This document shows positions 50,102-50,915 of a stretch of 64,000 nt of DNA, piece by piece; position 1 is the stretch's first letter; every line of letters begins with the position of its first letter. The position numbers were made by a program, and so were the translations under genes. Source of the stretch: Methanocorpusculum sp. (GTDB lineage Archaea > Halobacteriota > Methanomicrobia > Methanomicrobiales > Methanocorpusculaceae); NCBI RefSeq assembly GCF_030655665.1, contig NZ_JAUSPQ010000007.1, positions 1 to 64,000 of the forward strand, read 5' to 3'. The notes below the pieces were generated by a model. The model was not told where the DNA came from. It did not search any database and saw only the letters and a program-made list of their open reading frames with translations.

Positions 50102-50310
50102 ACGGGCGTGCTCGGCACACGTTACGAACCAGATCCTGCATCGAAACCCGGCTCATAAACGTATCTGATATATTAGTGTGAAGTTGAGGAGGTGGCATTT
50201 TGCATCATGCTTCACTTGACACTATATTATATAATTCAAATAGGACTTACGCGGTGTTGGTGTGGCTCCAATTCGGGAAGGAGTTTGTTGGGTGTAGAAA
50301 CCTGAGAAAA

Positions 50311-50515
50311 AACCAACCGCGAATCGGCGCGAATCCGCCCTTCGGGCGAGGCGAATCGGATTTGCTGACCCTCACTCTCGCTCGTTGGGTCTAGTCGCAA
50401 GGCAAAGCCTTGCTTGGCTGAGGTCGTCGACTTCGTCGCCAACCCGCTCGACCCAACGGCTCGTCCCTTCATCGGGACCGTTCGGGCAAATCCTGTCGGC
50501 GCCCCAGCGCCTCCC
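50311..50515 (+). repeat. GC-rich repeat unit, left copy
   Basis: A 205-base GC-rich element starting AACCAACCGCGAATCGG and ending CCCCAGCGCCTCCC. It contains small hairpins (CGCCC-ttc-GGGCG; AATCCG with CGGATT; GCAAGGC-aaa-GCCTTGC). About 80 bases in the middle differ from the right copy and contain a TTGGGTC / GACCCAA pair. Confidence 0.85.
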
Positions 50516-50605
50516 GTGGGGAGAAATTCATTGAGCAGTTCTTAATCTGAAAAATATCCATTTTACTGACAACCACGACATAAGATCAAGAGGCAAATCA
50601 ATAAT

Positions 50606-50752
50606 GGGAGCCGCTGGGGCGGCGACAGGATTTGCCCGAACGGTCCCGATGAAGGGATGAGCAAGACAGCGAAGCTGGATTGCGAAAGTGAGGGTCAGCA
50701 AATCCGATTCACTTCGCCCGAAGGGCGGATTCGCGCCGATTCGCGGTTGGTT
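50606..50752 (-). repeat. GC-rich repeat unit, right copy (inverted)
   Basis: The reverse complement of this 147-base stretch begins AACCAACCGCGAATCGG and runs through TCGGATTTGCTGACCCTCAC, CCCTTCATCGGGACCGTTCG and GGGCAAATCCTGTC, matching the left copy closely. It has a shorter central module of about 26 bases. The two units are separated by a 90-base A/T-rich spacer. Confidence 0.85.
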
Positions 50753-50915
50753 CTTTCTCTTGTGTCAAAACGAATGCCGTACACGAAATCGAAGTACATC
50801 TCATAAGCACGTCAGTTTTTTTCATTTGAGATCACACCACGTAACTCCTATTCAAAAATGAAACTGCGGAGAGAATAGCGATTCCTTTTTTACCCAGTAG
50901 TGCGTAGTAAATAAA

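Follow-up and report, generated by a model that had tools for sequence, protein, structure and literature searches.

The window, a 64,000-nt stretch of a Methanocorpusculum genome (NZ_JAUSPQ010000007.1, positions 1-64,000 of the forward strand, on which all positions are numbered), contains a short intergenic element built around two inverted, hairpin-rich units (units A and B). The element is the empty form of a mobile element that resembles miniature inverted-repeat transposable elements (MITEs). The same core of inward-facing units also has a loaded form, in which the loop between the units is replaced by one foreign, AT-rich cassette with genes of known or candidate antiviral function, and at one site different cassettes lie between the same flanks and units in different species. 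The reading that we favor, with a probability of about 55%, is that these are MITE-born platforms with exchanged interiors, the window holding the empty state of a two-state element and the exchange taking place by recombination in the units. The arrangement points to a plug-in holder through which immune genes could be swapped.

The mobility of the empty form is evident from its ends, its insertion site and the related genomes. Terminal inverted repeats (TAGGASTTACGCGGTGT) flank the window element on both sides and are found in most empty copies. The core terminal pattern, with at most one mismatch, occurs at 27, 40 and 13 sites in three genomes, compared to 0 for a reversed control pattern. 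Among 34 elements, the identity between the two flanks is 0.775 at 6 bp, compared to 0.567 for mismatched flanks, and this peak is limited to length 6 among the lengths compared. A perfect 6-bp duplication is present in 10 of the 34 elements, with 3.7% expected. The window element is absent from the orthologous site in UBA424 (G003), G014 (1,804,962 bp, which we take to be M. labreanum Z), G016 and M. parvum XII (G020). The empty site in M. labreanum is ATAATTCACACAAAAATGA, and the window has ATAATTCAAA-element-TTCAAAAATGA.

The inverted terminal repeats, the TTCAAA target site duplication (TSD) and the relatives lacking the element therefore identify a MITE-like mobile element. Like MITEs, it is short, present in many copies and free of a transposase gene. 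The empty form belongs to the MITE class, one of the two options raised in the original prediction. It is non-autonomous, has terminal inverted repeats of 17 bp and AT-rich TSDs of 6 bp, and has spread through the intergenic DNA of several Methanocorpusculum species. The mobile element (50241-50850) is larger than the predicted pair (50311-50752), with the terminal repeats and the 6-bp duplication located beyond it. A search for an autonomous partner found seven PF01609 transposases in three of five genomes (none in G014 and G016), none of them with the element ends; other transposase families were not searched. A viral origin was also considered and rejected, since 2.9 million viral contigs contain just 20 stretches of the iteron motif.

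The organization of the element is summarized in Table 1. The inverted units, with matching outer and inner ends, had been recognized correctly from the start. The outer arms (50292-50381 and 50682-50771, 90 nt) are 90% complementary and the inner arms (50459-50515 and 50606-50662, 57 nt) are 95% complementary, and the middles between the arms differ, as described. The high GC content and the hairpins also stand: the units have 57-63% GC, compared to 34-45% in the adjoining intergenic DNA, and unit A folds as DNA better than dinucleotide shuffles (z -2.7, with 1 of 200 shuffles equally good). No open reading frame (ORF) or gene overlaps the element. Formation of a cruciform by the unit pair is possible.

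Table 1. Features of the empty element in the window.
Feature	Position	Strand	Basis or description
Left TSD, TTCAAA	50235-50240	.	M. labreanum empty site; 6-bp duplications over 34 elements
Whole MITE-like element, empty form, 610 bp	50241-50850	.	Orthologous site empty in four relatives; TSD
Element ends, as end pattern TAGGASTTACGCGGTG			
Left terminal inverted repeat TAGGACTTACGCGGTGT	50241-50257	+	Pattern counts in three genomes
A-arm (..TCCAATTCGGGAAGGAGTTTGTTGGGTGTAGAAACCTGAGAAAA), kept among copies	50258-50310	+	
Unit A	50311-50515	+	Outer module, long nested-hairpin middle, inner module
Unit A outer module	within 50311-50515	+	10-bp-period GCGAATNNNN repeats and CGCCCTTCGGGCG hairpin
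Unit A inner module	50459-50515	+	
Loop filling the empty form, 90 nt	50516-50605	.	Resembles loops of other empty copies
Unit B	50606-50752	-	Outer and inner modules as in unit A, short hairpin middle
B-arm (GAGATGTACTTCGATTTCGTGTACGG.., inward reading)	50753-50833	-	
Right terminal inverted repeat TAGGAGTTACGTGGTGT	50834-50850	-	
Right TSD, TTCAAA	50851-50856	.	Empty-site comparison and duplication statistics

The seed AACCAACCGCGAATCGG, proposed originally for a genome search, is confined to the pair within the window, yet a 216-bp unit query finds 79 matches in the genome from which the window comes (G000, 1.81 Mb). The unit family is present in five other Methanocorpusculum genomes, and among the 100 relatives searched matches are found only within this genus. 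Complete pairs in G000, G014 and G016 are all inward-facing, with a few single or truncated units besides. The draft contigs break at repeats, and as a result some pairs are incomplete. Contigs C1, C2, C3, C8, C10 and C11 of G000 carry elements or terminal repeats in their first 330 bases. As several contigs end in elements, the assembly breaks at these repeats, and some loaded copies may be hidden there.

The 96 distinct units have 88 distinct middles, located between the constant CCTCACT and CCCT(T)CATCGGGA. Nearly all of the middles form hairpins (mean z -3.8 versus mononucleotide shuffles). Several of these hairpin sequences are mutually unrelated, some have further repeats nested in the loop, and compensatory changes are found in the stems (for example, CCAGC..GCTG versus CCTGC..GCAG). 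With its many genomic matches, exchangeable middles and lack of ORFs, the family is dispersed and non-coding, as predicted. The nested part of the unit A middle (50394-50447; GTCGCAAGGCAAAGCCTTGC..CGCCAACCCG) forms a dispersed hairpin repeat of its own, present at many sites on G000 contig C4, and its stem varies with compensation (AAATC/GATTT, AAGGC/GCCTT, AAGTC/GACTT and AAACC/GGTTT).

In the loaded copies, an inward-facing pair encloses 0.5-12 kb in place of the loop of about 57-97 nt. All 14 measured interiors have lower GC content than their flanks (0.33-0.42 versus 0.48-0.57). The known or candidate antiviral cargo types are Gabija, Dsr1, type I restriction-modification (RM), Dcm/Vsr RM, the GxxExxY nuclease and DUF4062, where the PADLOC and Pfam names denote homology only. 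By comparison, 10 genes flanking loaded or empty copies, a small control set for enrichment, have no PADLOC match. The cargo can lie nearly edge to edge with the units, with unit-to-ORF gaps of 42 and 73 bp at locus L033 and 45 and 1 bp at L129. The 87-nt loop of the empty copies was never found in loaded copies, and a model in which cargo is inserted into the MITE loop was rejected, as no loop halves are present in them.

The cargo in G000 includes Gabija (GajA and GajB), a Dsr1 homologue, a 637-aa protein without a family match, and an operon of HerA-like, HATPase, radical-SAM and mREase_IV/DUF3427 proteins. The Dsr1 homologue (L031:1296-4657, contig C4) reads as two ORFs, one of 865 aa and a SIR2 ORF of 264 aa, and is therefore probably frameshifted; it may be inactive or mis-assembled. 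In G014, the site that carries the 637-aa gene in G000 is occupied by a homologue of that gene; the other cargo consists of GxxExxY, type I RM, a 116+1133-aa gene and a Vsr-HATPase-response regulator-Dcm cassette. G016 has a DUF4062 protein and GxxExxY, as well as a SIR2 PDC-S65 protein adjoining a single unit. In UBA424, GxxExxY and a 1245-aa gene are the cargo, and a Druantia-E/type IV RE/PDC-S31 cluster lies beside a single unit, its left end being off the contig. GxxExxY is also the cargo in UBA425 (G013) and M. parvum, and the nuclease is thus present in five genomes. The 637-aa (L033:1765-3678 and L125:1542-3266) and 1245-aa (L185:1819-5556) families have no Pfam, NCBIfam or PADLOC match and are candidate new defence genes by their position. 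An AlphaFold2 model of the 637-aa protein from two sequences is uninformative, with a mean predicted local distance difference test (pLDDT) score of 30.

Different cargo is found at the site between a γ-carbonic-anhydrase-like gene and a second conserved gene. Gabija is located here in G000, and the 1245-aa gene in G014 (where it reads as 116+1133 aa) and UBA424. The three genomes align over the genes on either side, over both units and for several tens of bases inward of the left unit, and the cargo alone differs. The middle hairpin found on the left in G000 is on the right in G014, and vice versa, the outcome expected from recombination between the two units. At the Dsr1 site, a cassette is missing from UBA424. 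In its place G014 and G016 have a MITE of a second type (see below), with a B-arm similar to the arm beside the G000 Dsr1 cassette. Near an inorganic pyrophosphatase gene, a single unit is found beside SoFic in G000 and a Vsr/Dcm cassette in G014. The L126 site has other genes without units in other species; as it is not clearly the same site, it was not used as evidence.

The second family (type 2) has unit ends of AACC-GCGAATCTCC-GCGAATTAAC-GCGAATCGCA and shares the outer terminal repeats of type 1. Its units are also paired, and inward-facing pairs with AACCGCGAATCTCCGCGAATTAACGCGAATCGCA ends are present at L223, L224, L255, L258, L261 and other loci in G014, G016 and UBA424. Several of the pairs have cargo, consisting of PD-Lambda-4, DUF4062, GxxExxY and a YdjM-like protein, and this DUF4062 protein is related to that in the type-1 units. 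Single type-2 ends are adjoined by an exo/endonuclease-phosphatase protein and by a KAP NTPase PDC-S20 protein. At L221:850-2340 (UBA424, contig C10), a DDE_Tnp_1 insertion sequence (IS) is located inside a type-2 unit, with its own end repeats and an apparent 5-bp duplication, GATAA. Its transposase was considered as the autonomous partner and rejected, being part of an IS that jumped into the unit with ends of its own.

In the favored reading, MITE spread would make the copies, which would then serve as docking sites, and cassettes would change places through homologous recombination in the units and their arms. As the units are inverted, recombination between both units of one copy would flip the cargo rather than delete it. 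The cargo would be swapped where an incoming cassette recombined by double crossover. Several observations weigh against this reading. Recombination was not seen directly, and breakpoints within the units are indistinguishable from convergent gene conversion. Most loaded copies have no recognizable terminal repeats, and cargo genes of 637 aa, 1245 aa, 431+165 aa and 245 aa have no defence annotation. The same cargo is kept across species at two loaded sites (L033/L125 and L129/L133/L136), the large interior at L127 contains just a nested MITE, and L280 is a variable locus with defence-like genes that has no units.

Alternatively, the loaded copies could be ordinary non-autonomous passenger transposons, or mobile insertion cassettes (MICs), that are moved whole by a trans-acting transposase, with the empty forms being internal deletion derivatives. 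Such an origin would be consistent with the terminal repeats and 6-bp duplications of the empty forms, with the degenerate terminal repeats on both sides of two loaded copies (type I RM at L126 and DUF4062 at L255), and with the presence of one GxxExxY cassette family at multiple sites within the genus. It is unlikely, though to be taken seriously, as most loaded copies lack the terminal repeats, none contains any part of the loop, two different cargoes lie between the same flanks at one site, and G014 and G016 have no PF01609 transposases, those of the other genomes being without the element ends.

The bracketing could also be incidental, if repeats and defence genes both gather in variable intergenic regions. 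The variable locus L280 and the other small repeats nested in these repeats fit this explanation. It is disfavored, however, and we consider it improbable, since complete units are paired inward-facing, cargo can fill the interior almost completely (L033 and L129), and the same bracketing is found in the second unit family. A role of the transcribed pair as a structured RNA or long hairpin RNA is very improbable. The hairpins do persist as the 88 middles change, compensatory stem changes included, but the stems are equally readable as DNA hairpins, and cargo and loop vary between copies. The structured RNA element of the original prediction is not borne out by Rfam, with no match up to E=1 in the 3 kb around the pair.

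Several known systems share features with the proposed platform. Integron cassettes are interchangeable, single-function units beside hairpin-forming recombination sites, as is proposed for the cassettes here. In comparison, the sites here are inverted and on both sides of the cargo, and no arrays are seen; no integrase was noticed in the loci examined, and no search aimed at integrases was made. The empty form has the terminal inverted repeats and target duplications of MITEs, but hairpin units with exchangeable middles make up its core as a long inverted pair, and such a pair also brackets cargo as large as 12 kb. Loaded copies hold passenger genes between inverted repeats without their own transposase, as do the MICs MIC231 of Bacillus cereus (as cited in PMC2266710) and mic of qnrD plasmids (PMC3913671). 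In contrast to MICs, the bracketing repeats are structured units of about 150-200 nt rather than IS ends, most of the cargo is antiviral, with different cargo in different species at one site, and loaded copies have often lost the terminal repeats. The loaded form is not classed as a MIC, since intact ends and target duplications are mostly not found.

Tn3-derived inverted-repeat miniature elements (TIMEs) are likewise miniature, generate duplications of 5-6 bp in AT-rich DNA and contribute to mosaic, non-autonomous elements with cargo (PMC4133298). Their terminal repeats are different (38 bp, compared to 17 nt recognized here), and the cargo here is held in one inverted core, not between two separate copies. 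The Pseudomonas aeruginosa hotspots cDHS1 and cDHS2 have a low GC content and contain different immune systems at one position flanked by conserved genes (PMC10250203), as observed here. The boundary in our case, however, is a repeated DNA unit at many dispersed sites, empty ones included, rather than one core-gene pair. In the open-access literature we found no paper on Methanocorpusculum repeats and no account of defence cassettes bounded by such units, and neither Methanocorpusculum nor inverted repeats appear in a survey of archaeal immunity from 2026 (PMC12988326). The gain, loss and swapping of chromosomal defence systems without phages or plasmids are poorly understood, especially in archaea. 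A small repeat element at both cassette ends makes the exchange directly testable, and genes between such units, for example the 637-aa and 1245-aa families, are ready candidate defence genes.

Inverted elements with AACC(RCGAATNNNC)n ends and a 10-bp period are also present in Chloroflexi and Kiritimatiellae metagenome-assembled genomes and in a few viral contigs (L102, L101, L122, L112, L086, L231, L243 and L247). Only short forms were seen there, with no cargo. These elements possibly constitute one widespread, unnamed class. A more far-reaching proposal is a dedicated platform for immune-gene exchange, in which a recombination machinery would recognize hairpin units with the 10-bp-period GCGAATNNNN ends and swap, flip and protect single cassettes, with the elements elsewhere belonging to one cross-phylum class; we regard this as doubtful. 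Full Methanocorpusculum-type units are found on small contigs labelled Acholeplasmataceae, Bacilli and Bacteroidales (L097, L103 and L123), which are probably mis-binned.
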